This document shows positions 21,637 to 39,038 of a stretch of 64,000 nucleotides of DNA, one piece after another. Under the pieces are notes generated by a model. The model did no database searches. It had not been told where the DNA came from and worked only from the letters and a program-made list of their open reading frames with translations. The DNA is from Photobacterium sp. DA100. Lineage in GTDB: Bacteria; Pseudomonadota; Gammaproteobacteria; Enterobacterales; Vibrionaceae. The stretch spans positions 1,860,001 to 1,924,000 of the forward strand of contig NZ_CP119424.1 in NCBI RefSeq assembly GCF_029223585.1, given 5' to 3'. A program made the position numbers and the translations under genes. Position 1 is the first letter of the stretch. The number at the start of each line of letters is the position of its first letter.

Positions 21637-22896
21637 CTAGCTACGGGTGCTATCGCCTTTGAGCAATAGACAAAATTGCTGAAGCACATCGAGCGCTGAC
21701 AGCAGATCAACCTGAGTAATGGCCTCATCCGGATGATGGCTCACGCCATTCTTACAGCGCATGAACAGCATGGCAATATCCGTCAGGTGAGTCACCGCCA
21801 GGCCGTCGTGCCCGGCACCACTGAATAGCTGCATGGGCTCAATGCCTGCCGCTGACGTGGCCTGTGCCAGCATCGATGACAAACTCTCCGAGCAGGTCAC
21901 CGCCGCCTGCTGGTAAATCAGCTGGTGCTCGTAGCCCAGATCATAGTCGGCCATGATCTGGGCAATCTTTGCCAGCAGCGTGCTGCGGGCAGCCAACCGT
22001 GAGGCATCATTGGGTGAGCGCAGCTCGATGGTGATATCCGTCTGCTGCGGGATCACATTGACCCCGTTGGGGAAGTTCTCAATCTTGCCGACCACGCCGA
22101 CCAAGTCGTCCTGCCCTTTGCAGAGCTGATCGAAATAATGGATGACCTGTGCCGCCCCCACCAGGGCGTCCTGGCGCATGTTCATCGGCACCGTGCCGGC
22201 ATGACCCGCCTTGCCCTTGATACTCAGGGTATGGCGTTCGATGCCGGTGATGGCACTCACTACGCCAACGGGTAAATCGGCTTGTTCCAGCTGTGGGCCC
22301 TGCTCGATATGCAACTCGACAAAACCCAATACCTCTTCTGGCTGGTAGGCATCATGGCTGATCAGCTCGGGGCGGCAGCCAAATTGCTCCAGGGCCTGGC
22401 GCATGGTCGTACCCTGCGCATCCGCGGCATCGAGCATCGCCGGTTCGAATGTACCGGAAATCGCCTTCGACCCCAGCAAGGTCGACTGGAAGCGGGTGCC
22501 CTCTTCATCGCTGAACGCGATGACATCGATATGGTAGGGAAAAGCTATTTGGTTCTGGTTGAAGTAATGAACCAGAGCCAGAGGGGCGATAACACCGAGG
22601 ATGCCGTCGTATTTGCCGCCGTTGGGCACCGTGTCCTGGTGCGAGCCAAAAATCAGCGTCTTGGCATCCGGCGCAGCGCTCGGATAGCGGCCAATCAGGT
22701 TCGCCGCGTTGTCCATTCGTACTTGCATGCCGGCAGCCAGCATCCATTGGCGCAGTTTATCGTTCGCCTGACGGTGCTCGTCAGAGGCACACAATCGGGT
22801 AACCCCCTCACGATCCGGATCGGCAGTTTGCGAACAACGTGCTATTTCTTCCAACCATTCCCAAGTCAGGCTGGCAGACTCCTTTAGTCCCGTCAT
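21637..22896 (-). CDS. Allantoate amidohydrolase / N-carbamoyl-amino-acid hydrolase (M20 family)
   Basis: 419 residues, the usual length for AllC/HyuC-type enzymes. Metal site motifs are FGSHQDTVPNGGKYDG (His-x-Asp), SDEEGTRF and VELHIEQGP; GHAGTVPM and GAGHDG complete the family pattern. The Zn/Mn enzyme hydrolyses N-carbamoyl groups or allantoate; the exact substrate cannot be read from sequence. It is the first gene of the minus-strand operon, and its promoter region holds two identical palindromes shared with a divergent GntR-FCD gene. The ribosome binding site before the ATG is weak. Confidence 0.87.
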   Translation of the reverse strand: MTGLKESASLTWEWLEEIARCSQTADPDREGVTRLCASDEHRQANDKLRQWMLAAGMQVRMDNAANLIGRYPSAAPDAKTLIFGSHQDTVPNGGKYDGILGVIAPLALVHYFNQNQIAFPYHIDVIAFSDEEGTRFQSTLLGSKAISGTFEPAMLDAADAQGTTMRQALEQFGCRPELISHDAYQPEEVLGFVELHIEQGPQLEQADLPVGVVSAITGIERHTLSIKGKAGHAGTVPMNMRQDALVGAAQVIHYFDQLCKGQDDLVGVVGKIENFPNGVNVIPQQTDITIELRSPNDASRLAARSTLLAKIAQIMADYDLGYEHQLIYQQAAVTCSESLSSMLAQATSAAGIEPMQLFSGAGHDGLAVTHLTDIAMLFMRCKNGVSHHPDEAITQVDLLSALDVLQQFCLLLKGDSTRS

Positions 22897-22933
22897 GTCA
22901 AAATCGTTCTTTTTTCAATCAAACTTGCAGCTA

Positions 22934-22979
22934 ATTTATCATGATAAATATCAAAATAAAGCTATTTATCATGATAAAT
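22934..22979. promoter_or_regulatory. Two identical 16-bp palindromes (GntR-FCD operators)
   Basis: ATTTATCATGATAAAT occurs at 22934-22949 and again at 22964-22979. Each copy is a perfect palindrome; the centres are 30 bp apart, about three helical turns. They lie between the amidohydrolase operon and the divergent regulator gene, so they are the probable binding sites of that regulator, possibly on one face of the helix. Confidence 0.8.
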
Positions 22980-23129
22980 TGTTATATTTGTCCGAAAATA
23001 ATCCACTATAGGCATACTTTTTGATTGGCAAAACGATAAGAAAAAATGATGACAAGAGAAAAATTATTGGTAAGAATCAACCGCTAACAGCAAGTCGATT
23101 AAATAAACACACAGCACTTCGAGGTAATT

Positions 23130-23873
23130 GTGGCAGGCAGCACGAAAGGTAGACGCACTCAACAACTTGCTGAGTCAATCAAGGCATGGATTGTCGAACA
23201 AAGCTTAGCGCCTGGCGACCGCCTTCCCAATGAGCAGCAGATCATGGAGCTTTTCGATGCCTCGAAAAGTACCGTCCGTGAAAGCATGCGAATTCTCGAA
23301 GCGCAGGGGATCCTGGCCACCAAGACCGGGCCGAAAGGGGGCGCATTCGTTGCCGAAATGGGCGAGAGCAAAGCGCAATCTTTGCTGAGCAATTACCTGT
23401 TCTTCAAAGATATTTCCATTTCCGACATTTACCAGATCCGCCAATCGCTGGAGCCAGATGTTGCCGCCTCGCTGGCAGGAAAGCTGTCGGAACAGCAGCT
23501 ACAACGTCTTGAAGCGCAAATCGAGAAATACGCCACCCCACCCGCCGATATCTACCAAGAGCAGGCGCACCATATCGCTTCGATTGAGTTCCACAGCCTG
23601 CTGGCCAGTTACTCAAACAATGAGCTGCTGAAATTCATCGTCCGTTTCACCGCCCAGATGCTGACCGATCTCACCATCTACAAGAAACTCTACGCCCCAG
23701 AAAACCACCAGTTGTGGTTAACCGGGGTGCAGAGCCAGAAACAGCTTGTTGCCGCGCTGCGTAACGGCGATGCCGAGCAGGCCAAGCAGGTAATGTCGCA
23801 GCATATGCAAACTGCCCACGAACTGATGAAAGTGCAAGAAGTCGAAGTAGCCAAGCAATTTTTGCAGGAATAA
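23130..23873 (+). CDS. GntR-family regulator, FCD (FadR-like) domain
   Basis: 247 residues starting at GTG (GAGGT at 23120-23124, good spacing). N-terminal winged helix (about 8-75: LAESIKAWIVEQSLAPGDRLPNE-type opening, STVRESMRILEAQGI, TGPKGGAFV). C-terminal FCD ligand domain (about 90-235) with the helical pattern IRQSLEPDVAASLAG and EFHSLLASYSNNELL. It is divergent from the amidohydrolase-YfcC-DUF1028 operon and probably represses it through the twin palindromes. Confidence 0.88.
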   Translation: MAGSTKGRRTQQLAESIKAWIVEQSLAPGDRLPNEQQIMELFDASKSTVRESMRILEAQGILATKTGPKGGAFVAEMGESKAQSLLSNYLFFKDISISDIYQIRQSLEPDVAASLAGKLSEQQLQRLEAQIEKYATPPADIYQEQAHHIASIEFHSLLASYSNNELLKFIVRFTAQMLTDLTIYKKLYAPENHQLWLTGVQSQKQLVAALRNGDAEQAKQVMSQHMQTAHELMKVQEVEVAKQFLQE

Positions 23874-23909
23874 CCGGACGTCCTGCTTCTCGGCGAGCAC
23901 GCGCCGAAC

Positions 23910-24668
23910 TCAGAACCCCAACGCTGAGCCAATCAGCCGCAGCGCCAAAAAGGTCAGCATGATCCGAAGAGCCAGCTGGAACTTCTCGTTGGACACCCGC
24001 TGAAGCAGGGCCTGGCCGGTCATGGTGCCGAAAAAGCCGGTAAAGATCATCAGCACAATAACACCGGCCCAATCAGCAAAGGCAAAGCCTAGCCCGCCGA
24101 AAACCACAGCCTTGATCAAATGCTGGGCCGACATCAGGGCGGCCATGGTGCCAACCAGTTTCTGCTTGTCGGCAATAATGTGGCGCATGGAGGCAATCAC
24201 GAACGGCCCCGTCGCCCCGACAAACATGGTCAGAAAAGACGTCAGCGCTCCCAGTACCGTCAGACTTTTCTTGCCCTTGAGCGCGGCGGTGATCGGCACC
24301 CAGCAGCTAAGCAAGATAAAACCACCCAATATAAGCTGGAGATAGGCAGGCTCTAGCGACACCGCGATATTGCCGCCGATCACCGCCCCTATCACAGTGC
24401 CAACAACAAACCACCACACCAGATAGCGATCGACATCCTTTCGCATCAGCAGCAGTCGGCCGCCATTGCTGCCAAGCTGCACCACCGCATGAACCGGAAT
24501 AATGGCCGCCGCAGGCATAAAGCTAGCCATCACCGCTATCAAGAGCGCGCCCCCACCCGCCCCCATCAAAGCCGTGACCGCCGATGTGACAAAGCTCAGC
24601 GAGACCAAGATAGTAAATTGCAGGTCGGTTAATGCGGCGGGTTTAAACCATTCGTACACCAGATCCAT
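23910..24668 (-). CDS. TSUP (TauE/SafE) family membrane exporter
   Basis: 252 residues, about eight membrane segments, with two related hydrophobic halves. The N-terminal half has VTSAVTALMGAGGGALLIAVM and PVHAVVQLGSNGGR, the second half FVGATGPFVIAS and AQHLIKAVVFGGLGF, all typical of TauE/SafE (DUF81) transporters. These export sulfite, sulfoacetate or related anions in studied cases; the substrate here is unknown. It converges with the GntR gene with a gap of 36 bases. Confidence 0.85.
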   Translation of the reverse strand: MDLVYEWFKPAALTDLQFTILVSLSFVTSAVTALMGAGGGALLIAVMASFMPAAAIIPVHAVVQLGSNGGRLLLMRKDVDRYLVWWFVVGTVIGAVIGGNIAVSLEPAYLQLILGGFILLSCWVPITAALKGKKSLTVLGALTSFLTMFVGATGPFVIASMRHIIADKQKLVGTMAALMSAQHLIKAVVFGGLGFAFADWAGVIVLMIFTGFFGTMTGQALLQRVSNEKFQLALRIMLTFLALRLIGSALGF

Positions 24669-25163
24669 CTGCTCTACATCGCTCCTGGGAATATAGGGAT
24701 CATTTTACGGCGTTGCCTGATGCAAAAGACAACCGGGCCATCACAAAACGCAAAAACACTAAAACACAAGGTCCATACCCAAAGAAGGCGCTACCAAGAG
24801 GCCACTTTATTTGACCTAAATCGCCTTCTTGATAAGTAACTAACTTTCAAGTCACTCAAGCATAGTTTTACAGGCATCCATGTGCAAAAATGTGGGCTTT
24901 AATGGGTTATGTGACTGAGTTGGTAAGAAATGTGAGCTAAGTCAGGCGTTTAACATAACATCCATGATCTGCACTTGATTGTGGTTGGAGAGACATGGGG
25001 CATTACTACGAAAAATATCAAAATGAACAAAATAGAATGAAAACATTTGTAGTACGTTATGAATGTTATAAATTCACTAGTTCATCACATGAAGTATCTT
25101 CTAATTATATTTTTTGTGTTTTCAAAATGATCTTCAATGGAAATATTAATATAGGATTGAATA
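24669..25163. other. 495-bp intergenic region at the left edge of the AT-rich island
   Basis: No convincing gene. A 61-codon frame (24995-25177) has a GGAGAG-like site before its ATG but no recognisable similarity, and it overlaps the next gene. AAGAAGGCG (24782-24790) and CGCCTTCTT (24822-24830) form a 9-bp inverted repeat around a 31-base loop. Base composition shifts visibly to AT-rich from about 24,990. Confidence 0.5.
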
Positions 25164-26231
25164 ATGAATTACAATAATGCTGCTTTGGTAGCTACAGATA
25201 CTATTGAATCACCGATAAAGAAGATATACGTTTATGATATAGACGTAGCAAGTGATAAAGTAGTTAGAGTTCAAGATAAAGTAGAAGGCCTCGGTGGTCT
25301 TAATCAATTCTTAATTCATATATCCCAAGAAACTATTAATAGTACTAATTCGAAGACATTTCACTTCAACAGTGGTTCTAAGACTAAAAATTTATTGAAT
25401 AGTTTTATGGCTTCAACACACACACAAAGTGATGAAACTATAAGTACAGAACTAGCTAATAAGTTACTATCAGCAGAGAAAGCTACCACAAAGAAAGTAA
25501 AACAATTACATACTGGTTTAAAAAAAGGGACAATGGTTATATGCCATTTTCAATCAAATAACCGAGATTGTTTAATAATATCTAAACTTGATTTTGAGTC
25601 GTTTCTAGAACGAGATACATATACAAAAAAATTAGGACTTCCTGAAAAGAATGGAATATTGAAATCATGTGTTATCAATATCGAAAACAATAGCATGTCT
25701 GACAATGTTTATCTTTTGGATTCAAATAAGTCTATTTCACACTTTTGGTATGATCTATTTTTAGAAACAAAACCATTAAAAGATGATTTACTTAACACTA
25801 AAACTGCTTTTAGAGAAATTTCAAGAACATTTGTAGGCCTATCTCGCACGTCAAAAGTAGACTATCAGCAGCTGAAGAATAATTTGATTAGCTATTTTTC
25901 AACCAACTCTAACTTCACTACTTCTGATCTCTTAGATTCTTTAATTGGAGAATATAAGCCTGTATCGGATAAGGTTGATCTTGAGGAAATCAAATCAAAA
26001 ATACAATCACTTGTGGTTGATGGTAAATTTGATGGCAGTTTTGTTATAGATGATAAAGAAATTAAAGATAAGTTTAAACAAACAATAAAAGCTGATGGCG
26101 GCATTATTATTAGTACTAATAAAGGTTTTAACGATCGAATTTTCAGAAAAGTTATAGATGGTGAGAACTATATAATAATTAAGACAAACACTGGCTTAGA
26201 TGAAGTTCGTGAGTATCCAACTGGTGAGTAA
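25164..26231 (+). CDS. Nucleoid-associated (NdpA/YejK, NA37-like) protein
   Basis: 355 residues, AT-rich codons, Lys/Ser/Asn-rich. I place it in the 37-kDa nucleoid-associated family by pattern. The C-terminus GGIIISTNKGFNDRIFRK...NYIIIKTNTGLDEVRE parallels the E. coli YejK end (GGGLTINFDAMLLGERIF...LTIKGTPPNLRDQL). FREISRTFVGLS resembles the YejK region VADFFMDFLGAS, and a central strand (GTMVICHFQSNNRDCLIISKL) fits too. E. coli YejK binds nucleoid and topoisomerases. This one is a distant, plasmid/island-style relative. AGGA lies before the ATG. Only 5 bases separate its stop from the next gene, so the two form an operon, perhaps a nucleic-acid sensor with a membrane effector. Family call moderate, role speculative. 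Confidence 0.6.
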   Translation: MNYNNAALVATDTIESPIKKIYVYDIDVASDKVVRVQDKVEGLGGLNQFLIHISQETINSTNSKTFHFNSGSKTKNLLNSFMASTHTQSDETISTELANKLLSAEKATTKKVKQLHTGLKKGTMVICHFQSNNRDCLIISKLDFESFLERDTYTKKLGLPEKNGILKSCVINIENNSMSDNVYLLDSNKSISHFWYDLFLETKPLKDDLLNTKTAFREISRTFVGLSRTSKVDYQQLKNNLISYFSTNSNFTTSDLLDSLIGEYKPVSDKVDLEEIKSKIQSLVVDGKFDGSFVIDDKEIKDKFKQTIKADGGIIISTNKGFNDRIFRKVIDGENYIIIKTNTGLDEVREYPTGE

Positions 26232-26236
26232 CTAGC

Positions 26237-27577
26237 ATGTGTGTAAGTGAAGATTTTGATTTTTACTCTCTAGAGATTCAATTAAACTCTGATGATGCTT
26301 TGAGAAATGAGCAACTCAATAGCGCTAAAAGTTTCTTTGCATCTATCATTAGTAAGGGGTTTAATGCTCAGATCACATTTACGCTTAATGATGATATTGA
26401 ATACAATGGAATTGATATCTCACAATTGCTAGATTCAATCGATAGTATTGGTGATATAAACAGTGACGACTTAGCCATAGTTAAAATATCACATGAGAAA
26501 GATTGCTCAAAAACATTATATATTTTTAATTCTAGTGTATTTGTTTCTTTCCTCAATCGATTTTCTATAGAAGATCAAATAAAGCTAATTAATGATAAGT
26601 TATTTGATAACTATCAATCTATTAATGTAGATAATAATTACTTTCATATAGGCGCATTTCAACAGTCCTTGTACTATAAGGAAAGCTTATTTTCAGAAAT
26701 CAATGATATTTATTTAAAGATTTACAGCTCAAAGCTTTCCCCTCTTTATGTATCATATATTTTGGATAATATAACTACTGGCTGTGAGTTTAATCACTAT
26801 CTTAAAAAATTATTAGTCATTATGTGCCTTTCTTTAATAAGTAATGATTTTGATTTTCAAAAGAATCTCTTTATTTTTGATTCTGACAGAGAGATATCTA
26901 TTGATGATATAGAAATACAAGATAGCTTTACCTCTAGTGTATATCACGTTTTCTTATGGATATTTAGTGATGATAGATACATAACTAGGAAATCAGTATT
27001 TAATAGTGTTATTTCCTTGCAATCGAATATTTTTTATGCTTTTAATGAACGCTTAATTGGAACATTATCTTCAAATTTGAAGATTTTATACAAGAATAAT
27101 TTCGAAAATTATCTTGAAGCTAGAAATGGAGTTTTGGATTTCATTTTCGAGCTTTCTGTAAAAATGAACGATATGATAAATCAGAAATTATCCTCATCTA
27201 AAAATGTTTTTTTCGTGTTGATTTCATATTTTTTCACAACGTTTGTCTTTACTGGTATAGATAAAGGTAAAATAAATAACATGTTTAATGTTGATGTGAC
27301 AGCTTTGTCTCTAATTTTTATTATTTCCTCTATGATTTTTATTGTCTTCAATCAGTTAGATATTGAAAAAAACATTAATTTTCATCTATCACAAAGAGAC
27401 GAGTTTAAAAAAAGGTATGAGTCAATTTTTTCTGAAAAGGAACTAGATGATATGTTTAACTCTGATTCTTTAAATCAAGTAGTCGCAAACTCCAGATCTA
27501 GAAAGTACTTGTATGTTTATCAAGTTATTCTTTTTGCAATGTTTTCAACAGTAGTATATTTATACAGCCTTAAATAA
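26237..27577 (+). CDS. Hypothetical protein with C-terminal three-TM domain, partner of the NA37-like gene
   Basis: 446 residues. Residues 1-315 are soluble, acidic and Asn/Asp/Ser/Phe-rich, with no motif I recognise. The C-terminus has three hydrophobic segments: about 323-341 (FFVLISYFFTTFVF), 355-374 (LSLIFIISSMIFIVF) and 424-444 (YVYQVILFAMFSTVVYLY). Between TM2 and TM3 is a charged, probably helical segment (about 375-423). GGTGAG lies 8 bases before the ATG. The layout of a large cytosolic domain plus a small TM bundle is seen in membrane-acting effectors, but no specific family is identified. Strong AT bias and lack of paralogues nearby suggest transfer. Confidence 0.75.
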   Translation: MCVSEDFDFYSLEIQLNSDDALRNEQLNSAKSFFASIISKGFNAQITFTLNDDIEYNGIDISQLLDSIDSIGDINSDDLAIVKISHEKDCSKTLYIFNSSVFVSFLNRFSIEDQIKLINDKLFDNYQSINVDNNYFHIGAFQQSLYYKESLFSEINDIYLKIYSSKLSPLYVSYILDNITTGCEFNHYLKKLLVIMCLSLISNDFDFQKNLFIFDSDREISIDDIEIQDSFTSSVYHVFLWIFSDDRYITRKSVFNSVISLQSNIFYAFNERLIGTLSSNLKILYKNNFENYLEARNGVLDFIFELSVKMNDMINQKLSSSKNVFFVLISYFFTTFVFTGIDKGKINNMFNVDVTALSLIFIISSMIFIVFNQLDIEKNINFHLSQRDEFKKRYESIFSEKELDDMFNSDSLNQVVANSRSRKYLYVYQVILFAMFSTVVYLYSLK

Positions 27578-27600
27578 TCGTTCAGGTTCTGTGCCTAACT

Positions 27601-27664
27601 ACCCCGTCTAGTAATACGGGGTGAAAGTTTAAGTGGGTAAGTACAGTATGTTTGCCTACCCACT
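27601..27664. terminator. Two hairpins between convergent island genes
   Basis: ACCCCGT/ACGGGGT (27601-27607 and 27616-27622) and AGTGGGTA/TACCCACT (27632-27639 and 27657-27664). They lie 23 bases after the plus-strand stop and 16 bases before the end of the convergent Cas2-like gene. Only short T-runs follow, so termination strength is uncertain. Confidence 0.55.
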
Positions 27665-27680
27665 CTCAACATTAATATTT

Positions 27681-27950
27681 TTAGTATGGTAAGTTTTCCT
27701 CTAGCCAGTTGTTGACATCAGTATGGCCATAGCCACAATAAGGCTTTTTCATAGTAATTACGTATAGACTGTCATTTTTATCAATGTGGCTTTTAAGAAT
27801 GTTGTAGATTGTTGTTGGGCTATCTACTGTTTTTATTGCATAACTTGACTCAGATAACATAGCCCAAGGGTATTCTTTTATAGCAGACAGTAGCTTTGAA
27901 TGGTTCTGACCTGGTGAATTCAAATCATATGTAACTAACAAGACAGACAT
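27681..27950 (-). CDS. Orphan Cas2-like (SinR/VapD-like fold) protein
   Basis: 89 residues from the Met that gives MSVLLVTYDLNSPGQ; AGGAA is well spaced from this ATG, while an upstream in-frame ATG (27956) is too close to it. The ferredoxin-like Cas2 pattern is visible: first strand LLVTYDLN with Asp at residue 9, SYAI strand, SHIDKNDSLYVITM strand. This matches the stand-alone Cas2-like group annotated as SinR family. There are no other cas genes and no repeat array in the window, so a CRISPR role is unlikely; VapD-type relatives are ribonucleases or toxins. Confidence 0.7.
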   Translation of the reverse strand: MSVLLVTYDLNSPGQNHSKLLSAIKEYPWAMLSESSYAIKTVDSPTTIYNILKSHIDKNDSLYVITMKKPYCGYGHTDVNNWLEENLPY

Positions 27951-28069
27951 ACACATTTCCTTTTTGTAAATAACGCTAGTAACATACTGTTATGTAATAA
28001 AAAAATATACAAGTAAGATCACGTTTTTGATTTTTAGAATTATTCGAAAATGACTAGATTACTTAAGCG

Positions 28070-28453
28070 TCATTTTGATTTATAAGACTGTGGCAATTGA
28101 TGTAATAGCCTTGCTGTTCGTATAATTGCCGCTTTTAACTCCCTATCACTGTCGGCACTGATTTGTAAAAGCGCATTACCTGTAACAATCCTGTCTGGGG
28201 TTAAAGTCCATCCGTTCGGCGTTACCAGCTCCCCTTGTTTGATTTGCCATCCTCTCCAATTGTCATTAATCGCTGCAAGATCTCTACATGAATAGAGCTT
28301 CATTAGCCTTCTACACTCCGGTGGTATCTTCTGACCAGAGTCCCACCGTGTGACAGTTCTCACAGATTTGAAACATAGTTCAGCTACCCTTTTTTTACTC
28401 AGTCCACAGACAAATTTTCGAAAAATGTAGTTTTCAGTCAACTTACTAGCCAT
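28070..28453 (-). CDS. DUF3653 phage-type regulatory protein
   Basis: 127 residues. The N-terminal half is HTH-like (LSKKRVAELCFKSVRTVTRWDSGQ) followed by IPPECRRLMKLYSCRDLAAI, GWQIKQGELVTPNGWTLTPDRI, a pattern characteristic of the DUF3653 proteins carried by vibrio filamentous phages and related elements. It is probably a DNA-binding regulator. No other phage gene (replication, coat, zot) is visible, so the element is either a remnant or a transferred single gene. A decayed fragment of a second copy lies at 29791-29833. Confidence 0.75.
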   Translation of the reverse strand: MASKLTENYIFRKFVCGLSKKRVAELCFKSVRTVTRWDSGQKIPPECRRLMKLYSCRDLAAINDNWRGWQIKQGELVTPNGWTLTPDRIVTGNALLQISADSDRELKAAIIRTARLLHQLPQSYKSK

Positions 28454-28704
28454 AGCGCTTATTTATTCAATCCATTGTTACGCAACTGATAGAATAATAA
28501 ATTCTCTAAGATATTGATGTTTCGAGTTAATTAACAAGAATGATACTTTCTACATTTAACATAACGCACCCATAAAGCGTACTAATAAAGCCTTTTCTTC
28601 ACTCAGTTATAGTTATGAAAATATGGAAAAAAAGCAGCCGAATGAGCGTTATTGAAAATTGCTCAAACGACTCTTAATGAGATAAAACTAAAATATCAAT
28701 CTTA
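28454..28704. other. 251-bp AT-rich gap
   Basis: No gene seen. It contains TTTAACATAAC (about 28554), an 11-mer also present near the left island edge (about 24949). Confidence 0.4.
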
Positions 28705-29463
28705 TCAATTGACCTTAATCGCAGATAGTAAGCCTAATCTTCCATTTTTCCTAATTTCGTCTTCTATATCGCTTGGAAGTTTTGCTTCATATAAAGAATA
28801 AGCACAGGATAAGCTTTCCGAATCTAAGCCTATTGCTTCAGATAAATCTGCAGTTCTTAGATCTGTACGACAAAATACAGCAAATGATAAATCTGCACCT
28901 GTAAAATTAGCTCCTTGTAAATCGGCATCAGAAAAATTAGCACCGATTAAGTTGCTACCTGAAAAGTTGGCATTAAATAAATTTGAATTTTGAAAGTTTG
29001 CATTTGAAAGGTCTGATATTCCAGAAAAGTTACCTTTATATAAATAAGAATTATCTAACTCGCTCCGGTAGTGTTTCAGTAAGTTCTTTAATTCTATTTC
29101 TGATTCGACATTTAATTCTGTAACCCTTAACAGTGATTTAATGTTAGCGATAGGGTTATAAAAGTCTGGTTTAACTAAAATATGTGAGCCTTGCAAGGCA
29201 GTGATTTTGTTCTTTCCTAGTTGTTTCAAATCATCCATTTGTAGCAGAGTATAAACTTGTGAAACTTTCGCATCATATGATCCTTTATTAACTTCATATA
29301 CAGCTGATGTTAATGAGAACAAAGCAATATATATCGAGAATATCCAGAATACTATAGAGGATGGCTCAGGTTGACCTGTATTCTTTTCTGGCCTGACCTT
29401 ATTCCAAATATACCTACATCCACTAAAGTCCCACAATAACTGTCGAACTTTTCTAATGTCCAT
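28705..29463 (-). CDS. Membrane-anchored pentapeptide-repeat protein
   Basis: 252 residues. One hydrophobic segment (about 37-57, SIVFWIFSIYIALFSLTSAVY), then a mixed region, then consecutive pentapeptide repeats at about 137-210 of the A(D/N)Lxx type (LSNANF, LFNANF, LIGANF, LQGANF, LSFAVF, LRTADL). GGGAG precedes the ATG. Pentapeptide proteins form a right-handed quadrilateral beta helix; some mimic DNA and protect gyrase, others are channel- or defence-associated. The short solenoid with TM anchor is closer to the latter kind. It lies alone in the island on the minus strand. Confidence 0.8.
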   Translation of the reverse strand: MDIRKVRQLLWDFSGCRYIWNKVRPEKNTGQPEPSSIVFWIFSIYIALFSLTSAVYEVNKGSYDAKVSQVYTLLQMDDLKQLGKNKITALQGSHILVKPDFYNPIANIKSLLRVTELNVESEIELKNLLKHYRSELDNSYLYKGNFSGISDLSNANFQNSNLFNANFSGSNLIGANFSDADLQGANFTGADLSFAVFCRTDLRTADLSEAIGLDSESLSCAYSLYEAKLPSDIEDEIRKNGRLGLLSAIKVN

Positions 29464-29637
29464 ATCGTTACTCCCATATTAGATAAATTTTTACCTCCCC
29501 TAAAATACTGTAAGTTTAAACCTTACATCTTAACGTGCTAATTATTTTTAGCTTTTATGTGACAAGGGTGTGATATATATGTTTTTATTCGGCTGTAGAT
29601 CTGATTCATCTATTATTGTCGTTAAAGTTCACCCGCG

Positions 29638-29736
29638 ATGATGTTAGGTGGGCAAGGAACGGATTATCAGTATCTGATCCCTGTCACTGCACAAACAGTA
29701 AGTGGAACAGCTGTTTATATTGAGCCTGAAAGTTAA
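29638..29736 (+). pseudogene. Short coding remnant ahead of a terminator
   Basis: A 32-codon frame (MMLGGQGTDYQYLIPVTA...GTAVYIEPES) ends 9 bases before a strong hairpin terminator, as the 3' end of a real gene would. A stop lies shortly upstream in frame. I read it as the surviving tail of a deleted gene; a tiny intact gene is possible. Confidence 0.35.
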
Positions 29737-29744
29737 AGCCGTTT

Positions 29745-29770
29745 AAAGCCCTCTCCTAGAGGGCTTTACC
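29745..29770 (+). terminator. Hairpin terminator
   Basis: AAAGCCCTCT (29745-29754) and AGAGGGCTTT (29758-29767), perfect 10-bp stem, 3-base loop. It marks the end of the remnant frame. Confidence 0.8.
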
Positions 29771-29790
29771 CCGCTAACGTGCATGCAACA

Positions 29791-29833
29791 TTGCCACCCT
29801 CTCCAGTCGTCATTAATCGCGGCAAGATCTCTT
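29791..29833 (-). pseudogene. Fragment of a second DUF3653 gene
   Basis: Read on the minus strand it encodes RDLAAINDDWRGWQ, against RDLAAINDNWRGWQ in the intact gene at 28070-28453. The 42 aligned bases differ at 4 positions, 2 of them silent. Flanking sequence does not continue the similarity. Confidence 0.7.
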
Positions 29834-29906
29834 TATCTGATAAGCGGCTTTTTCCTTCTTCATTGCTACATTTAATGTGCTGTGTACTGAAAATAGGAAA
29901 GTTTTA

Positions 29907-30350
29907 ATGAAGACCCTTCTATCTGTCATCCTGATATCTCTTTGTTTGTCCCGATTTGCTTATGGCGCAGATCAGCCCGAAGATGCGAGCGCGGTTGTTC
30001 AAGATGCTAAGGAAGAATGCGCTCGTTTTGAGAATGGCGAATTCCACGCGACTGAGCAGGCCATTTCATTGCATGACTTTACCGGTGATGGCCAACCAGA
30101 GGAAATCGTGGACGCGGCGCAGTTCTCCTGCTCAACCTCGGCTTCCATGTGGGGTGGCTCTGGTGGCACATTCCTATGGGTCGTTGTTGATGGAAAATCA
30201 TACGAATTTCTTGCCAATAAATGGAAAATTGTCGATTTTGATGGGCAATCAGTCCTCTTACTTGCGGTTCATTCTTCTGAATGCAGCGATGACATTGGCC
30301 CCTGTTATCGGGCGCTGGTTTGGAGCGATGGTTTCAGGACAACACGCTGA
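29907..30350 (+). CDS. Secreted hypothetical protein
   Basis: 147 residues from the ATG at 29907 (AGGAAA at 29895-29900); a 10-codon upstream extension lacks a ribosome binding site. Signal peptide about 1-20 (LLSVILISLCLSRFAYGA). The mature part has an FG-GAP/EF-like loop (LHDFTGDGQPEEIVD), four cysteines and ends CYRALVWSDGFRTTR. It looks like a periplasmic conserved hypothetical protein; function unknown. Confidence 0.7.
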   Translation: MKTLLSVILISLCLSRFAYGADQPEDASAVVQDAKEECARFENGEFHATEQAISLHDFTGDGQPEEIVDAAQFSCSTSASMWGGSGGTFLWVVVDGKSYEFLANKWKIVDFDGQSVLLLAVHSSECSDDIGPCYRALVWSDGFRTTR

Positions 30351-30446
30351 GTTGGTGGTTTTGCAGTACGGGCATCAATCACGGAAAGCTGATAAATAAC
30401 AAGGTATTATGTATTTTTATCAGCCTATCAATACAAGGAAAGGGAT

Positions 30447-31082
30447 TTGAGTCAGTACTTTGATAACGTGGCTAGCGATTGGGATACATGCCCTGCTAAG
30501 GTCGAGCGCGCTGAAATAACAGCAGCAAAAATCAAAGAGATTCATTTTGAATCAAAACATAGCATTGTTGATTTTGGCAGTGGCACGGGTTTATTGGGCT
30601 TTCAGCTCAAGGATACGTTTTCTCATGTTCACCTCGCCGATGCATCGGAGAAAATGCTTCAAGTTGCTCAAGCCAAAATAGCTGCAGCGAATATCAATAA
30701 CATTGAAACCCATCAAATTGACAGGCTGTCTGAATTAACATCAAAACATTCAGCGATAGCGACATTGATGACACTTCATCACATCCCTGATGTAAATGAA
30801 TTCTTTACTGACGCTTATGGTGCGCTTGAAGATAATGGCATGTTGATCATTGCCGATTTATACGAAGAGGATGGTTCGTTTCATAAGCATAACCCGAGCT
30901 TTGATGGCCACAATGGCTTTAATGTTTCAGCGTTATCAGCTATTGCGGAGAACGCAGGTTTTATCGTTCAGCATATAGAGCAGTATTATGAAATTTGGCA
31001 GGAAAACTTCGAGGGTGTTGAAATATCGTATCCACTGTTTCTGTTCGTCGTGAAGAAGTCAAAGCAAACAACGGCACAATGA
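30447..31082 (+). CDS. Class I SAM-dependent methyltransferase
   Basis: 211 residues beginning at TTG, with AAGGAAAGGGA upstream. Rossmann motif I is VDFGSGTGLLG (about 41-51), the acidic ribose-binding residue is in VHLADASE, and motif IV is near TLMTLHHIPD. Substrate unknown; similar small methyltransferases act on small molecules. A monocistronic gene followed by a hairpin at 31093. Confidence 0.87.
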   Translation: MSQYFDNVASDWDTCPAKVERAEITAAKIKEIHFESKHSIVDFGSGTGLLGFQLKDTFSHVHLADASEKMLQVAQAKIAAANINNIETHQIDRLSELTSKHSAIATLMTLHHIPDVNEFFTDAYGALEDNGMLIIADLYEEDGSFHKHNPSFDGHNGFNVSALSAIAENAGFIVQHIEQYYEIWQENFEGVEISYPLFLFVVKKSKQTTAQ

Positions 31083-31092
31083 GGCCATTAAG

Positions 31093-31118
31093 GCCCTCTT
31101 TAGTCCAGAGGGCTGTTT
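31093..31118 (+). terminator. Terminator after the methyltransferase gene
   Basis: GCCCTCT (31093-31099) pairs with AGAGGGC (31107-31113), followed by TGTTT. T-run is short. Confidence 0.55.
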
Positions 31119-31148
31119 ATCTACTATCAAATCATTCCAAGGTGTTGG

Positions 31149-31799
31149 TTATGCTTTGGTTGCCGAGAACAGGGCGACACAGCCAATCACTTCCACCTTC
31201 ACATTCGAAAAGTACTGATGCAGGGCCTCTTCTAAAGCGCCGAGTTCGTCGTGATCATTACAGAAAATGCCTTTCTTGTTGTAGAGCGACATCAGTTTCT
31301 GGGCGAAGGCATTTTTCTCCGTCCCCTGGCCCAGAATCGTACTGCCAAACACCACGCCTCCGGAGCTCATCACCTCTCTAATGTGCGAGAACACGATGCT
31401 TTTTTCAGACATGCTTCCCGGCAGGCAGTGCAGCAGGTAGTTAATGCTTACCGAATCGAACGCCTCGCAACCCAGTCCAAACGGCTCGAGCACATTGCGG
31501 CAGTAGATCTCCGGCTTTAGATGCTCGATAGCTTTGGCCGTTGACTCCAAGCTGTTTTCATTAAGGTCTACCAAAGCGATTCGTTGGCCCCCGGCCGGCA
31601 AGTTTTGCTTGAGGTAATACCCCGTCCCCACCCCGACATCAAGGTGGTTAGCTGTAACTAAATCGGCAAACTGCTTGCTGATTAGACGTGTCGGGCATTT
31701 CCATAGGTAGTGATTGGAAAAACCTAATACCCATAGATCATAAATTGAGAGGACTTTCTTCGAGTAGACGGCTTGGCCTGCGACAACATCTTTATTCAT
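31149..31799 (-). CDS. Class I SAM-dependent methyltransferase (second, unrelated)
   Basis: 216 residues. N-terminal YSKKVLSIYDLWVLGFSNHYLWKCP, then motif I LDVGVGTGYYL (about 52-62) and acidic strand IALVDLNENSL. The N-terminal part resembles methyltransferases found beside natural-product genes, but no such genes are here. It converges with the previous methyltransferase, with which it shares only the fold. Confidence 0.83.
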   Translation of the reverse strand: MNKDVVAGQAVYSKKVLSIYDLWVLGFSNHYLWKCPTRLISKQFADLVTANHLDVGVGTGYYLKQNLPAGGQRIALVDLNENSLESTAKAIEHLKPEIYCRNVLEPFGLGCEAFDSVSINYLLHCLPGSMSEKSIVFSHIREVMSSGGVVFGSTILGQGTEKNAFAQKLMSLYNKKGIFCNDHDELGALEEALHQYFSNVKVEVIGCVALFSATKA

Positions 31800-31947
31800 C
31801 TATTTATCAATACTTTGAATCAAACGAATATGCAAAATATAGCAAACTGCTGTCACAGCAAAACATACCAGTTAAAAAGGTAGAAAATTAAACCACGCAA
31901 ATTATACCGAACACACTCAAGCGAAGCCGCTGGCTACCAAGCCAAGA

Positions 31948-32142
31948 TTACGTTACGTCATGCTCGCAGCTACCTTTTTTGGCGACCCACATTTGATGTT
32001 TGTGGCAATGGGAAAACAAGATCGCAGAGCAGTTTGGGCACAGGTACTTGAACGCATGCCGATGCGTTATCTTCTCTAGCCAGGTTCTGTGTATCTGGTT
32101 CAAGAATACATATTGAGAGCAGCTTGGACAGTTAGTATGCAT
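31948..32142 (-). CDS. Small zinc-ribbon protein
   Basis: 64 residues with CPSC near the N-terminus and CPNC about 30 residues later, a two-knuckle zinc ribbon, plus several His in FSHCHKHQ. AGGAGG lies 5-6 bases before the ATG, an unusually strong site, so it is probably translated. Function unknown. Confidence 0.65.
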   Translation of the reverse strand: MHTNCPSCSQYVFLNQIHRTWLEKITHRHAFKYLCPNCSAILFSHCHKHQMWVAKKGSCEHDVT

Positions 32143-32409
32143 AAAAATCCTCCTATCATTCTATGCCTACAAAGCGTAACCATAACAAACTAAATGCATA
32201 GATGCTATTTTTCAGTGATTTCGCTCCCAAATATTACAACAGCAAACAATAGCCACAGGGAATGCTTTTACCTTCACTGTCTAGGAGAGCCGCCTTGTCC
32301 GCCTCGTTGTGGTGATGACTGCAGCTTTCGCGCCCGGTACAGGCAGGTTTCCTCCTCTACCCCCTCCCGCCTTGCTAGGTTATGATTTCCTTTTTGAAAG
32401 GGACGTTTA

Positions 32410-32925
32410 ATGAAGCACTTACATTTGGTGATTTTTGCACTGTTTCTGTACTTGGGCCTGTTCTGGCCTGATATGGACAAGCAACTGATGTCCCTGCTGC
32501 ATCACCGCTCTATGATCACCCATAGCCCACTGTTGCCAGTGTTGGTGCTGGTATTGCTGCGCTCAAAGTATGCCAAACCGATTGCCGCCGGGCTGAGTGC
32601 GGGGATCAGCATCCACTTGGCGGCGGATGCCCTGTCACCAATGGGCGGGTTTTCGCAAATCTACCTGCCTGCGCCGTTCAAGGCATCGATTGGGGCAACG
32701 GAATCATTACTGTGGCTAGGTTTGAATGCGGTGGCGGGGTATTTTCTGGCCTTGAGGCTGCTCAGAGCCCATAGCAAAACCATTCCCTTTATATACCTGC
32801 TGGCGGCAGGAGGGTATGCGCTTTACATCAAAGACGATATGCGGCCATGGCTGGCCTGTCTGGCGATTTTCCTTATCCCTTTTTTGTTCGACAAGGCCAA
32901 GAGCAAACTGAGGCGAATTGCTTAA
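32410..32925 (+). CDS. YdjM-like membrane-bound metal-dependent hydrolase
   Basis: 171 residues, about four to five TM segments. It contains FWPDMDKQLMSLLHHRSMITHS near the start, the Asp/His motif of the YdjM/DUF457 inner-membrane hydrolase family, and ISIHLAADALSPMGG. Activity unproven. A single gene between unrelated units. Confidence 0.75.
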   Translation: MKHLHLVIFALFLYLGLFWPDMDKQLMSLLHHRSMITHSPLLPVLVLVLLRSKYAKPIAAGLSAGISIHLAADALSPMGGFSQIYLPAPFKASIGATESLLWLGLNAVAGYFLALRLLRAHSKTIPFIYLLAAGGYALYIKDDMRPWLACLAIFLIPFLFDKAKSKLRRIA

Positions 32926-32947
32926 TCGCGGTGAAGTGCTTAAAGCC

Positions 32948-33604
32948 TCACGATGAGGCCATGACTTTGATACCGAAAATGGTAAACAACCCACCGGTTA
33001 TATAATCCATCACACCCGAAATACGGGCATAGACACTTTTCGCAGATTGATGTGAGAAGGCCGTCGCGAGCAGTGAGTGCCAACACAGGGTGATTGAAGA
33101 CATGGTGAGCATGATGGCTAAGATCATCGTCGTTGTCATTGCTCCGGACACACTGCCAGGCATGCTCTGTGGCATAGCCACACTGAATAAACTGACCACG
33201 AAAAAGCCGGTTTTCGGATTGAGGATGCTGGTGATAAACGCCGTGATAAAAACCTTTTTGTTCGATGGCGATATAATCTGTTGGCCTCGAGGTAACTGGC
33301 CAAGCCTTTTTGTTTTGCGGGTTTGGTAAATCTGGCGAAGCCCCAGATACAATAAGTAGCTACCGCCCACCACTTTCATCACGCTAAACAGCTGAGGAAA
33401 CGTCGTCAGCAAGATAACCAGTCCAGAGCCACCTAAAAACGCCCACAGCAATATAGCGGTACTGACCCCAAAGGCAGAGAACATGGCGAGAGTGCGGTTG
33501 TATTGCAGTGCGGTATTAATCGTTAGGAGTACATTGGCTCCTGGCGTCGCCACAGCGAGTATCCAAATCAATGCCACATGAGCAAGCACCAATAACACTT
33601 CCAT
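32948..33604 (-). CDS. LysE/RhtB family amino-acid exporter
   Basis: 218 residues with six TM segments. Family signature is ATPGANVLLTINTALQYN at about 20-37, plus a positively charged central loop (QTRKTKRLGQLPRG) and ILNPKTGFFVVSLF. The start is the ATG at 33604; an in-frame TTG two codons upstream lacks better support. The product would export an amino acid or derivative; substrate unknown. Confidence 0.85.
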   Translation of the reverse strand: MEVLLVLAHVALIWILAVATPGANVLLTINTALQYNRTLAMFSAFGVSTAILLWAFLGGSGLVILLTTFPQLFSVMKVVGGSYLLYLGLRQIYQTRKTKRLGQLPRGQQIISPSNKKVFITAFITSILNPKTGFFVVSLFSVAMPQSMPGSVSGAMTTTMILAIMLTMSSITLCWHSLLATAFSHQSAKSVYARISGVMDYITGGLFTIFGIKVMASS

Positions 33605-33919
33605 TACCAACCATCCCTATCAAGTAAGGCAACCGCCGAATATTCTGTCAGTATCCATGGAATTTTCACAAAGACAAGATATTGATCTACAAAGCAGTAT
33701 CTCGGTCATAAGCCATCATGACGACTGCCAAATTTCCCCCCTCGATTCTCAGCATGCAAAAACACAACGGCTTGCTGTAACAGGCACCGAACAACTTGTC
33801 GCCGCAAGATATTGACCAAGTACTTATCGAGAAATTTCTGTAACGGCTATTTAGCATCCATCTTGTTAACTTAGTGGTATATTGAATCTCATCAATCGGG
33901 CTAGTACAGGACAGAGATT
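33605..33919. other. 315-bp divergent promoter region (lysE / patatin)
   Basis: No gene seen; an 81-codon minus-strand frame crosses it and runs into the patatin start without a family match. It should hold promoters for both flanking genes. Confidence 0.4.
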
Positions 33920-34774
33920 TTGCCGGCATCACTCTTTAACCCCAAACCCTATAAATTCGGGCTCACCCTCTCTGGCGGTGGCGCTAAATGCATGGCGCAA
34001 ATCGGTATGTTGCAGTACCTCGACGAGCAAGGCGTAAAACCGGATGTGATTTCCGGGGCTAGCGGCGGCGCACTTGTCGGGGCGTTGTATGCGGCTGGCC
34101 ATAGCCCGGAGAATATCCTGTCATTCTTTATCGAAAGCCAGATGTTCAAAGCCAGCAGTTTCTCTTTCAACAAGCTGGGCTTGATCAACGCCGAAAAGCT
34201 CAACCGCCATTTCCACGGCTGGATCAAACGGGATAACTTCGATGCGCTCGACATTCCACTCTATGTCGCGGCAACCGATCTCAATAACGCGCAACAAGTG
34301 GTGTTCCATGAGGGAGAGCTGATTCAGGCGCTACTGGCCTCGGCGGCTTATCCTGGCATGTTCACGCCGGTAAAAATCGGCGACAAACTGTTTGCCGACG
34401 GCGGTATCACCAATAACTACCCGACCGATCTGATCCACGGTTTATGTCGCGCTCATCTCGGGATGTATTTGAGCCCGTTGGAGCATAAAGCCAGCCATGA
34501 GTTTACCGATGCCTTTGATGTCATCGACCGGGTATTTGAAATCTACAGCTCGGCGCACCTTCTGAAAAGCATCAAGTTACCCGATATCAACCTTGCTCCG
34601 GAAGGGATTGATAAATGGGGGGCATTCAACGTCAACAATGGCAGCCTGACCACACTCTATAACTTGGGCTACGAAACCACACGGGATTACTTCTCGGGCG
34701 AAGGGGCCGAATGGCTGGCAGAGCTCAAGAAGTCTTTATCCAAAAAATCATTATTAGACAGCTTTACTCGGTAA
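33920..34774 (+). CDS. Patatin-like phospholipase
   Basis: 284 residues, TTG start preceded by AGAG. The oxyanion hole is LTLSGGGAKCMAQIGML (about 14-30), the nucleophile elbow GASGG with Ser48, and the dyad Asp160 in DGG. Expected reaction is acyl-ester hydrolysis of phospholipids. No signal peptide, so it is cytosolic or delivered by another route. Similar to rssA-type single-domain patatins. Not linked to the flanking genes. Confidence 0.88.
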   Translation: MPASLFNPKPYKFGLTLSGGGAKCMAQIGMLQYLDEQGVKPDVISGASGGALVGALYAAGHSPENILSFFIESQMFKASSFSFNKLGLINAEKLNRHFHGWIKRDNFDALDIPLYVAATDLNNAQQVVFHEGELIQALLASAAYPGMFTPVKIGDKLFADGGITNNYPTDLIHGLCRAHLGMYLSPLEHKASHEFTDAFDVIDRVFEIYSSAHLLKSIKLPDINLAPEGIDKWGAFNVNNGSLTTLYNLGYETTRDYFSGEGAEWLAELKKSLSKKSLLDSFTR

Positions 34775-35272
34775 AAACCTCTCTATTCACCCCCTCAATA
34801 GTGGGCCGATTGTATATTATGGCCCACAGCCCTGCCTATAAATAAAGGCCGCTAAAAAGCGCCTGCAACTCAATAACTTTCACCCGCACCGTAATTCAAT
34901 TACAGGCTGTATTTTCCTTGCTGAACCTAAGATAAACAGGATATGAAATCCGTTGAAAACGGTGAAATTCAGCCAAAACGCAAACCGATCTAACTCAAAC
35001 TTTTAAGCTATGCAATTAGCAAAATAAAACCTTAGTCACATTAAGCGAAATTTATTAAATTTCCATCAGTTTGACCAAGCTCTAATTTTAGCTATTGATT
35101 TGTCACTCAGATAAAAAATGAAAATTAATTACCTGCCCATTTTGAGAACCAACAAATAAAAACCCGCTTGACACCAAAATTTATTAGATCGCCATCACAT
35201 TTTCTGCCCATTTGATTCTTTAAATGGGTTGTATTGATAATAACCCCAACAACGAACAACAGGGTTAAAGAC
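34775..35272. promoter_or_regulatory. 498-bp upstream region of the cmt-type PTS operon
   Basis: AT-rich, no gene. GAAATTTATTAAATTTC (35047-35063) is a 7-bp-arm palindrome; TTGACA occurs at about 35169, within 105 bases of the EIIA start. These are candidate operator and -35 elements for the PTS operon. No strong CRP match found by eye. Confidence 0.4.
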
Positions 35273-35716
35273 ATGCTATACGAGTTAATTGATCACGAAT
35301 TAGTGGATGTCATCAACGACGGTACATACCAATGGCAAGAAGCTGTAAGGAAAACAACTCACTACCTTGAGCAACGTGGCTACGTGTCGAATCAGTATGC
35401 CGATGCCATTATCCAATCGACACAAGAGAATGGTCCTTACTACGTATTATGCCCTGGCCTCGCAATGCCTCACGCACGACCTGAAACAGGGGTATTGAAA
35501 ACTGGGCTTGGTATCCATGTCTTCCCGTCCCCTGTTGATTTTGGCTCTGATCTCGGTCCGGCCAATGTCCTTATTACTTTAGCAGCAAAAGACTCTGATA
35601 CCCACATAGAAGTGATTCAAGCCTTGAGCGAGATGTTTGTGGATGAAGAGAACATTGAGAAGCTAGCCCAAGCATCTTCCAAAGAACAAGTGCTAGACAT
35701 AATAAAAGCATACTAA
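35273..35716 (+). CDS. cmtB: PTS EIIA component, mannitol/CmtB family
   Basis: 148 residues from the ATG at 35273 (AGGG upstream); a longer frame opens at 35234 without a site. The phosphorylated His is in CPGLAMPHARPE (His67). E. coli CmtB has about 147 residues. It phosphorylates the EIIB domain encoded by the next gene. It is the first gene of a six-gene operon whose next four members match E. coli cmtA, yggP, yggD and yggC. Confidence 0.85.
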   Translation: MLYELIDHELVDVINDGTYQWQEAVRKTTHYLEQRGYVSNQYADAIIQSTQENGPYYVLCPGLAMPHARPETGVLKTGLGIHVFPSPVDFGSDLGPANVLITLAAKDSDTHIEVIQALSEMFVDEENIEKLAQASSKEQVLDIIKAY

Positions 35717-35729
35717 GAGGGAACATAAC

Positions 35730-37130
35730 GTGAAACCAAACATGCGAGCTAATGTGCAAGCCTTTGGCGGTCATTTGACTGCCATGGTATTGCCGAATAT
35801 CGGGGCCTTTATTGCCTGGGGCTTTATAACCGCACTCTTCATCCCTACCGGTTGGGTACCAAACGAAGCCTTTGGTGAGCTAGTTGGCCCAATGATCACT
35901 TACCTACTGCCACTGCTGATCGGTTACACCGGCGGCCAGATTGTCGGCGACAAGCGCGGAGCCGTTGCCGGTGCTATCGGTACCATGGGTGTTATCGTCG
36001 GCGCGGATATCCCAATGTTTGTCGGCGCGATGATCATGGGCCCACTGAGTGCCTGGGTGGTGGTGCAAATGGATAAGCGTATCCAGCACCGCATTCCATC
36101 AGGCTTCGAGATGGTGGTGAACAACTTCTCGCTGGGTATCGTCGGCATGATCCTGTGCCTGTTCGCCTACGAGATTGTTGGCCCGGCCGTCACAGCCGCG
36201 AACCTGTTCGTCAAGTCAGGCATCGAGGCGCTGGTTGCAACCGGCTTCCTGCCGCTGCTGGCGATTATCAACGAACCTGCCAAGGTACTGTTCCTGAACA
36301 ACGCTATCGACCAAGGGATCTACTACCCACTTGGCCTGCAGGCAGCAGCAGAAACTGGCAAGTCCATCTTCTTCATGGTGGCCTCTAACCCGGGTCCGGG
36401 TCTCGGTATGCTGCTGGCTTACGCAAAATTCGGCCAGGGTCTGAGCAAGCGCTCTGCACCAAGTGCCATCATCATCCACTTCTTCGGCGGTATCCACGAG
36501 CTTTACTTCCCGTACGTGCTGATGAAACCAATCATGATTGTGGCAATGATTGCCGGTGCAGCAACCGGTATCGCCACCTTCAACCTGCTAGACGCTGGTC
36601 TGGTAGCGGGCCCGAGCCCAGGTTCAATCTTCTCTTACTTGGCACTGACACCGAAAGGCAGCTTCATCGCGACGATTGCCGGTGTGGTATCAGCAACAGT
36701 CGTATCCTTCCTTGTCGCCAGTGCGATTCTGAAGATGAGCAAGTCAGAAGACAAAGAGAACGAGTTCGAACAGTCGGTCTCTGACATGAAAGACATGAAA
36801 GCCGAAGGCGCGGTGAAACCTGCCGCGGCAGCAACCGAAGCGCCAGCAAAACCAATCCAGTTTGTCGCCTTCGCTTGTGATGCAGGTATGGGCTCCAGTG
36901 CGATGGGTGCCTCAACCTTCAAGCGCAAGCTGACCAAGGCGGGGATTGATATTGAAGTGAAGAACTTCGCCATCGAGAAAGTCCCAAGTGATGCCGACAT
37001 TGTGGTCACCCACGAGAGCCTCGAAAACCGAGCGGTTAACGCGACAGGGCTACCGGTCATCACTATCAAAAACTTCCTTAACGACCCTGCTCTTGACGAG
37101 CTGATGGTAACAATCGAACAACAAGCTTAA
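35730..37130 (+). CDS. cmtA: PTS EIICB component, mannitol/CmtA type
   Basis: 466 residues, CmtA about 462. The EIIC domain (about 1-340) has the mannitol-family motifs GADIPMFVGAMIMGP and FFGGIHELYFPYVLMKP. A flexible Ala/Lys/Glu-rich linker (about 345-375) follows, then EIIB (about 377-466) with the phosphorylated Cys383 in ACDAGMGSSAMGAS. It probably imports and phosphorylates a hexitol or related sugar, not necessarily mannitol. Confidence 0.87.
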   Translation: MKPNMRANVQAFGGHLTAMVLPNIGAFIAWGFITALFIPTGWVPNEAFGELVGPMITYLLPLLIGYTGGQIVGDKRGAVAGAIGTMGVIVGADIPMFVGAMIMGPLSAWVVVQMDKRIQHRIPSGFEMVVNNFSLGIVGMILCLFAYEIVGPAVTAANLFVKSGIEALVATGFLPLLAIINEPAKVLFLNNAIDQGIYYPLGLQAAAETGKSIFFMVASNPGPGLGMLLAYAKFGQGLSKRSAPSAIIIHFFGGIHELYFPYVLMKPIMIVAMIAGAATGIATFNLLDAGLVAGPSPGSIFSYLALTPKGSFIATIAGVVSATVVSFLVASAILKMSKSEDKENEFEQSVSDMKDMKAEGAVKPAAAATEAPAKPIQFVAFACDAGMGSSAMGASTFKRKLTKAGIDIEVKNFAIEKVPSDADIVVTHESLENRAVNATGLPVITIKNFLNDPALDELMVTIEQQA

Positions 37131-37146
37131 AGCCTAACTGAGCATT

Positions 37147-37168
37147 ATAGGGCGGTTCGCCGCCCTAT
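37147..37168 (+). promoter_or_regulatory. Intra-operon hairpin upstream of yggP
   Basis: ATAGGGCGG-TTCG-CCGCCCTAT, a perfect 9-bp stem with a UUCG-type loop, followed by TTT and directly by the AGGAG of the next gene. A partial terminator or processing/stability element. Confidence 0.55.
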
Positions 37169-39029: not shown

Positions 39030-39038
39030 GGCCTCACG

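Follow-up and report, generated by a model that had tools for sequence, protein, structure and literature searches.

The 64,000-nucleotide stretch of Photobacterium sp. DA100 DNA analysed here (the window) carries two adjacent genes, A and B, and raises the question of what a relative of a nucleoid protein and a membrane protein do side by side in AT-rich DNA. Gene A (25164..26231, forward strand) encodes a 355-aa YejK/NA37-fold protein with putative DNA binding. Gene B (26237..27577, forward strand) encodes a 446-aa protein that was characterized by hydropathy and alignment, a profile relation and a match to phrog_32650. The two ORFs and the 5-base gap between the stop of A and the ATG of B (26232-26236) were as the original prediction had described them. 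The AT-rich island that it had claimed was also evident, with a GC content of 28-30% at 25000-28000 compared with 52-56% over the 5 kb on its left and 44-50% between 30 and 35 kb. A 60-aa ORF (24995..25177, forward strand; from the ORF list only) extends 14 nt into gene A. Our leading reading, put forward tentatively and a little short of an even chance, is that A and B, as its two subunits, form a DNA-binding system coupled to the membrane and directed against phages (or mobile elements), which a small Xer-type element carries as cargo.

Neither protein matched a Pfam or NCBIfam family above the cut-off. PADLOC models gave no match for the window pair at E<=10 and none for the pairs of three relatives at E<=1; over five window proteins, only weak Cas2 and RmrA matches were obtained. 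A matched phrog_30064 (E=3.5e-15) and B matched phrog_32650 (E=5.1e-8), both PHROG families of unknown function, indicating that relatives of the pair are present in PHROG's viral-type collection. A literature search, with most subscription papers outside its scope, returned no description of the window A-B pair.

Fold of protein A and architecture of protein B

The resemblance of A to YejK/NdpA, which the original prediction had placed at the C-terminus, was real but not confined to that end. The YejK profile match spans residues 33-246, a broader NA37 set matched A over 288 columns, and the predicted model of A matched YejK structurally over residues 13-347. Structure prediction thus recovered the NA37/YejK fold, which in the predicted model is present across the full length of A. 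Because A did not reach the gathering cut-off of Pfam NA37 (PF04245) and matched 0 families even at E<=1, we classed it as a fold-level relative rather than a Pfam NA37 member. No enzyme family was matched by A, and a profile search of the PDB gave weak, unrelated matches only. AspKin and lipoprotein matches fell below the cut-off and were dropped. YejK binds DNA. E. coli YejK (NdpA) is 14% identical to A in the structural alignment and differs in that A has a membrane partner beside it in every locus found. The host chromosome also encodes its own YejK (L046).

The three C-terminal TM segments claimed for B were recovered as Kyte-Doolittle peaks only, at residues 323-341, 352-370 and 427-445. 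B is thus laid out as an N-terminal part of ~320 aa, a TM segment, a short IDKGK loop, a second TM segment, a linker and a third TM segment. By hydropathy only, three C-terminal TM-like segments are present in all nine intact members of the B family, and 51-65 residues separate TM2 from TM3. The loop sequence is IDKGK in seven of the nine and IDKGR in one, and is divergent in L027. The predicted model of B had a pLDDT of 70, and fold searches returned nothing at E<=0.001 in the PDB or BFVD; residues 294-446 matched generic helical bundles. Neither RexA nor KwaA was seen among the listed structural matches of B, a listing that rules out neither. RickCE_cat and COX5A matches of B were below the cut-off and were also dropped.

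The best-conserved stretch of B is TM1 with the following loop (50% mean identity), compared with 17-19% in residues 1-185 and 17% in TM3. A membrane effector would account for this conserved segment no less well than an anchor would, and the segment is the main argument for a Rex-like abortive system, a possible but less probable alternative. In such a system, A would be the sensor, binding replication intermediates or phage DNA in the cytosol and activating B, whose TM segments would then damage or depolarise the membrane. RexA was absent from the listed structural matches of A, a listing that excludes nothing.

Linkage of A and B and their carriers

The original prediction depended on the two genes occurring together, and they were adjacent in every locus found. 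Order and orientation were constant in 10/10 distinct loci (the window, L009, L010, L011, L012, L013, L014, L027, L028 and L033), and the intergenic distance was -4 to +5 nt in the nine intact pairs. Four of 99 genomes, that of the window among them, have A, and the same four have B; within the genus, A was found in 4/52 genomes. Profile searches with A matched 3/369 genomes at class level and 3/398 at phylum level. With B as query, 3/266 class-level genomes matched, and all three also had A. The genome sets of these searches overlap. The class- and phylum-level A profiles added G616, G622 and G1055, with B beside A in each; the G622 copy has an interrupted A and a B that stops short. Among 394 genomes at order level, only that of the window held the family. 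Four of the five order-level profile matches were judged by eye from their neighbours to be housekeeping YejK and were not counted as members.

A search of genome contigs with a B alignment gave five loci, with A directly upstream in all (118 stretches matched a pattern), and alignment searches of viral contigs gave one contig, L014, carrying the pair. These alignments succeeded where single-protein scans of the contigs found no relative for A (genome and viral contigs) or B (viral contigs). No match was obtained by tblastn in phages with A or B of the window, A of L013, L009 or L012, or B of L033, nor in plasmids with A of L013 or with A or B of L033. A blastn search of E. coli genomes also gave none.

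The identities of A and B correlate over 36 pairs (Mantel r 0.97), as expected from co-inheritance; shared descent alone would also produce this. The A proteins of Vibrio jasicida and P. frigidiphilum are 70% identical and two Photobacterium copies (L009 and L010) are 34% identical, and, judged from these sequences, gene relations and host relations disagree.

The foreign origin that had been claimed for the DNA stands for an insert but not for the flanks that were compared. Window positions 21771-24968 and 29720-42717 are collinear by blastn with a relative's locus (L084 of genome G025) at 97% and 95% identity, which delimits an insert at 24969..29719 (4751 bp, no strand assigned, GC 31.4%). 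The collinear site in G025 lacks this insert and carries an unrelated 2844-bp insert instead (L084, 13959-16802), in which a 142-aa ORF, a tyrosine recombinase and an IS91-type transposase were named by eye. The G025 insert is joined to the same dif-like half site as that of the window.

Scans with dif patterns placed a dif-like Xer site at the left junction (24948..24975, reverse strand; AGTGCAGATCA-TGGATG-TTATGTTAAAC) and a second in the same orientation at 28554..28583 (reverse strand; AGTACGCTTTA-TGGGTGCG-TTATGTTAAAT), with a spacer of 8, not 6. The strict pattern gave these two sites in the window, compared with a mean of 0.02 and a maximum of 1 in 200 shuffles. Over the whole genome, a relaxed pattern (<=2 mismatches) gave three matches, namely the left junction and one dif-like site per contig, and its backwards control gave one. 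A looser Xer-site scan was not above chance (two in the window, 1-7 in 20 shuffles), and the first dif pattern with 3 mismatches gave nothing in the window.

The two dif-like sites bracket A, B, a Cas2-like gene and xafT. The Cas2-like product (27681..27956, reverse strand, 91 aa) matched phrog_1090 (E=6.6e-21), and its matches to Cas2 models were weak (PADLOC E=3.2e-4; NCBIfam 0.0012, below the cut-off). The gene at 28070..28453 (reverse strand) encodes an XafT-family (VC1465) Xer recombination activation factor by its matches to NF040522 (E=1.2e-15; 57.6 bits, under the cut-off of 70), DUF3653 (above the cut-off) and phrog_1668 (E=7.3e-40; labelled tail assembly protein). A 252-aa pentapeptide-repeat protein (28705..29463, reverse strand; Pentapeptide E=7e-17) lies in the insert outside the Xer-bounded part and is absent at the G025 site; an N-terminal hydrophobic segment was seen in it by eye. 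Separately, a 42-bp stretch of xafT (28244-28285) matches the right flank at ~29791-29832, a stretch common with G025, at 90% identity, and looks like what a previous xafT element left behind at this site.

We read the bracketed unit as a small element with an activator of its own that would integrate through the host XerCD. According to PMC9765430, dif mimics are used by IMEX elements, and XafT is encoded by one IMEX of V. cholerae. The window element is likewise flanked by dif-like sites (24948-24975 and 28554-28583). It does not lie in the chromosomal dif: the presumed dif of its contig, C2, is at 972759, ~0.9 Mb away, and we therefore term the element IMEX-like, at a secondary dif-like site.

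Elsewhere, the recognisable contexts of the pair were mobile or defence-like rather than housekeeping operons, as the original prediction required. In L009, the gene order is TnsA, Mu-type transposase, TniB, helix-turn-helix gene, A, B, TniQ, Csy2-domain protein, Csy3 and Csy4, which we take to be a type I-F3 CRISPR-associated transposon (CAST) with the pair as cargo. This transposon, in Photobacterium proteolyticum (L009, 4650-16175), has the pair between the helix-turn-helix gene and tniQ. At L014/L029 (G025 again), the pair adjoins a filamentous-phage-like block and is flanked by a packaging ATPase gene (PHROG 'terminase large subunit') and a 'major head protein' gene. L010/L030 have tyrosine recombinases (a Phage_integrase match in two of three first genes) and a ResIII helicase near the pair, together with a PIN_12 gene and a DUF6988/PDC-S52-like gene; PMC13092281 counts DUF6988 as one of the domains with a newly found link to defence. 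In L013, the pair adjoins DarT and its NADAR antitoxin, and in L027 a serine recombinase lies ~2 kb upstream. No clear carrier was seen for L011, L012 and L033, where few neighbours were scanned. By eye, the pairs of V. jasicida (L012, 8726-14216) and Shewanella atlantica (L013, 4202-10861) lie at the 3' end of a gcvP-like gene, and the 3' end of gcvP (glycine-cleavage P) is a possible shared insertion hotspot. The prophage-type contexts also speak for the Rex-like alternative.

NA37 genes with membrane partners on plasmids and phage-plasmids

A YejK query matched 231/72,556 plasmid records. Such plasmid-borne homologues are compatible with a reading without defence, in which A would be a nucleoid or regulatory protein of the element (like NdpA2 on PAPI-1) controlling its expression or maintenance, and B would tether the element DNA to the membrane; one YejK homologue is described as controlling ICE transfer (PMC8565334). 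However, the unrelated carriers of the pair (Xer element, CAST, prophage and integrase island) fit cargo better than a carrier-specific regulator, and we consider this reading unlikely.

Of the 40 records listed, three were examined, and two of these pair the gene with a membrane partner. In the Xanthomonas and Methylobacter plasmids, the gene directly after the NA37 gene (Pfam match) encodes a hypothetical protein of 425 or 377 aa with TM-like segments at the C-terminus; the V. breoganii plasmid has no such membrane partner directly after its NA37 gene. The Methylobacter partner matched 12 plasmid records. Among the nine of these that were examined, Methylobacter included, an NA37 gene lies directly upstream of the partner in seven (in L102 by annotation only). 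In the Glaciecola record, the gene upstream is not recognised by the YejK profile, and its product shares 34% identity with the E. coli NA37 protein; the Cupriavidus record contains a short fragment and lacks an NA37 gene. The first gene of the Glaciecola pair (L105, 1245-3654) encodes two N-terminal CxxC motifs.

The pairs on plasmids and phage-plasmids, which came from Methylobacter, Xanthomonas, Sphingomonas, Methylobacterium, Pseudomonas, Acinetobacter and E. coli, have the same gene order as the window pair, with junctions of -20 to +27 nt. In seven of eight partners, ~250-290 aa are followed by a TM segment, a short loop, a second TM segment, a linker of ~50 aa and a third TM segment. 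By a crude hydropathy measure, the E. coli partner has one TM-like segment and the other seven of the eight have at least three. The YejK profile recognises seven of the eight plasmid A proteins, whereas Pfam NA37 has no match to the window A. Likewise, IDKGK/R is present in 8/9 B proteins of the window family and was not seen as such in the plasmid partners. In the Methylobacter partner (L096, 4022-5155), TM1 is followed by a loop that reads EDKG, by eye reminiscent of IDKGK.

An hhalign comparison of family B with the eight partners scored 41.0 (E 2.7e-4, probability 41.7), compared with 14.0 (sd 1.8, maximum 18.5) for 25 shuffles and 18.5 for the reversed profile. The match ends in TM1, roughly in register, and with this probability of 41.7 we take the downstream partners to be homologous to B. 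Single plasmid partners compared with family B gave noise in both hhalign and hmmsearch (hmmsearch 1.2 bits). For A, a direct hhalign comparison with six plasmid A-type proteins was also noise (17.2, compared with 14.6, sd 2.0, for shuffles), and the family A HMM matched none of the six. Against 42 pooled YejK and plasmid sequences, family A scored 42.4 (probability 62.8). By fold, YejK profile and adjacency, the protein encoded directly upstream of B is of the NA37/YejK type.

In two E. coli phage-plasmids (L101, 1523-3915; L102, 1449-3834), the pair lies in opposite orientation between an antiterminator and a lambda-family holin, both by annotation. The L102 partner is annotated as two overlapping ORFs. 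Together with the site between packaging ATPase and head genes in L014/L029, these moron-like positions (the antiterminator-holin site by annotation) are what favours superinfection exclusion or counter-defence on behalf of a carrier prophage or satellite, in which the entry of competing phage DNA would be blocked at the membrane. This is the least probable of our readings and a very improbable one; the pair is also carried by a CAST and lies at chromosomal loci where no prophage was recognised, and the mechanism overlaps with that of a membrane-tethered defence system.

Candidate mechanism and comparison with known systems

In the membrane-coupled anti-phage system that we favour, B would reside in the inner membrane through its three C-terminal TM segments, with the long N-terminal part predicted to be cytosolic, and would hold or recruit A, a putatively non-enzymatic YejK-fold DNA-binding protein. 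On the entry of foreign DNA or a disturbance of the membrane, the presumed triggers, A would bind the foreign DNA at the membrane, and replication and transcription would be blocked, like KwaB in Kiwa. A defence function is what we infer for the pair. Counted for this reading were the YejK fold of A, its weak structural match to KwaB, the 10/10 adjacency, the occurrence of A and B in the same genomes, the mobile contexts, the relation to NA37 partners, the validated E. coli system with a YejK domain and the listing of KwaB as transposon cargo. Counted against it were the missing profile relations between A and KwaB and between B and the presumed KwaA, the reversed Kiwa gene order, the conservation of TM1 and its loop, the noise-level hhalign result for family A against the plasmid A proteins, the probability of only 41.7 for the B relation, and the PADLOC result of weak Cas2 and RmrA matches only. 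We prefer a Kiwa-like over a Rex-like mechanism because A matched no enzyme family, the relatives of its fold are DNA-binding proteins and a long part of B is soluble.

The sensor-effector defence interpretation of the original prediction is partly supported, by the fold, the adjacency and the mobile or defence-like contexts. Its statement that no named system has this pair holds for the window family only: NA37 + 3TM pairs show that the architecture has a wider spread, and protection by a YejK-domain system has been reported. A broader proposal is doubtful, though possible: the YejK fold would have been recruited into a widespread membrane-tethered immunity (NA37 + 3TM) that clamps and silences incoming DNA, with the window pair as a branch that has diverged deeply and travels on Xer-type elements, prophages and CRISPR-associated transposons, and with KwaB as a remote offshoot of the fold. 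If so, membrane-coupled DNA-binding immunity would be broader than Kiwa, nucleoid proteins would be one of its sources, and it would be carried by very small Xer-type elements and CAST transposons.

The order of A and B is the same as that of rexA and rexB. RexB is not known to have a large soluble part, whereas B has its three TM-like segments, by hydropathy, after ~320 residues. The likeness to RexAB, as described in PMC12894663, is that of a prophage-borne DNA-binding protein and membrane protein: DNA binding is the part of RexA/RexApp, with RexApp modelled as a clamp-like dimer, and RexB acts as the effector in the membrane. In the same source, four TM domains are predicted for P. putida RexB, a number that differs from the three of B.

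Kiwa combines a membrane protein with a protein that binds DNA and does not cleave it (PMC12904381), and KwaB appears in a list of Tn7-like transposon cargo (PMC8649781). The likeness to A and B lies in two genes for a membrane protein and a DNA-binding-type protein, and in KwaB being a weak structural match to A (rank 2 among all PDB chains; Foldseek, E 0.017). The Kiwa gene order is the reverse of A-B, and B differs in its long N-terminal part followed by three TM segments. Profile comparison gave no homology of A to KwaB (PF16162; hhalign probability 0.2, with six of eight KwaB matches used and two broken or partial ones left out) or of B to KwaA (hhalign probability 0.8 against seven ORFs chosen by their position upstream of KwaB).

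Another close counterpart comes from DefensePredictor, where a YejK-domain system protected E. coli MG1655 against phages, 42/94 cloned units were protective in E. coli and the YejK domain was among ten domains new to defence (PMC13092281). The sentence on YejK in that text names neither the system nor a partner, and the legend of its Fig. 3 has the labels ZF, TM and CC. Given these labels and the two CxxC motifs at the start of the E. coli NA37 protein (L101), we infer that the DefensePredictor YejK system and the E. coli L101 pair may be the same. The defence-reported YejK domain thereby gains a likely operon context and a candidate membrane partner, and an orphan pair is tied to the YejK fold and to a partner family of Alpha- and Gammaproteobacteria and E. 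coli phage-plasmids. We accordingly file the window pair as a diverged branch of the NA37 + 3TM pair, the YejK component of which has already been implicated in defence.
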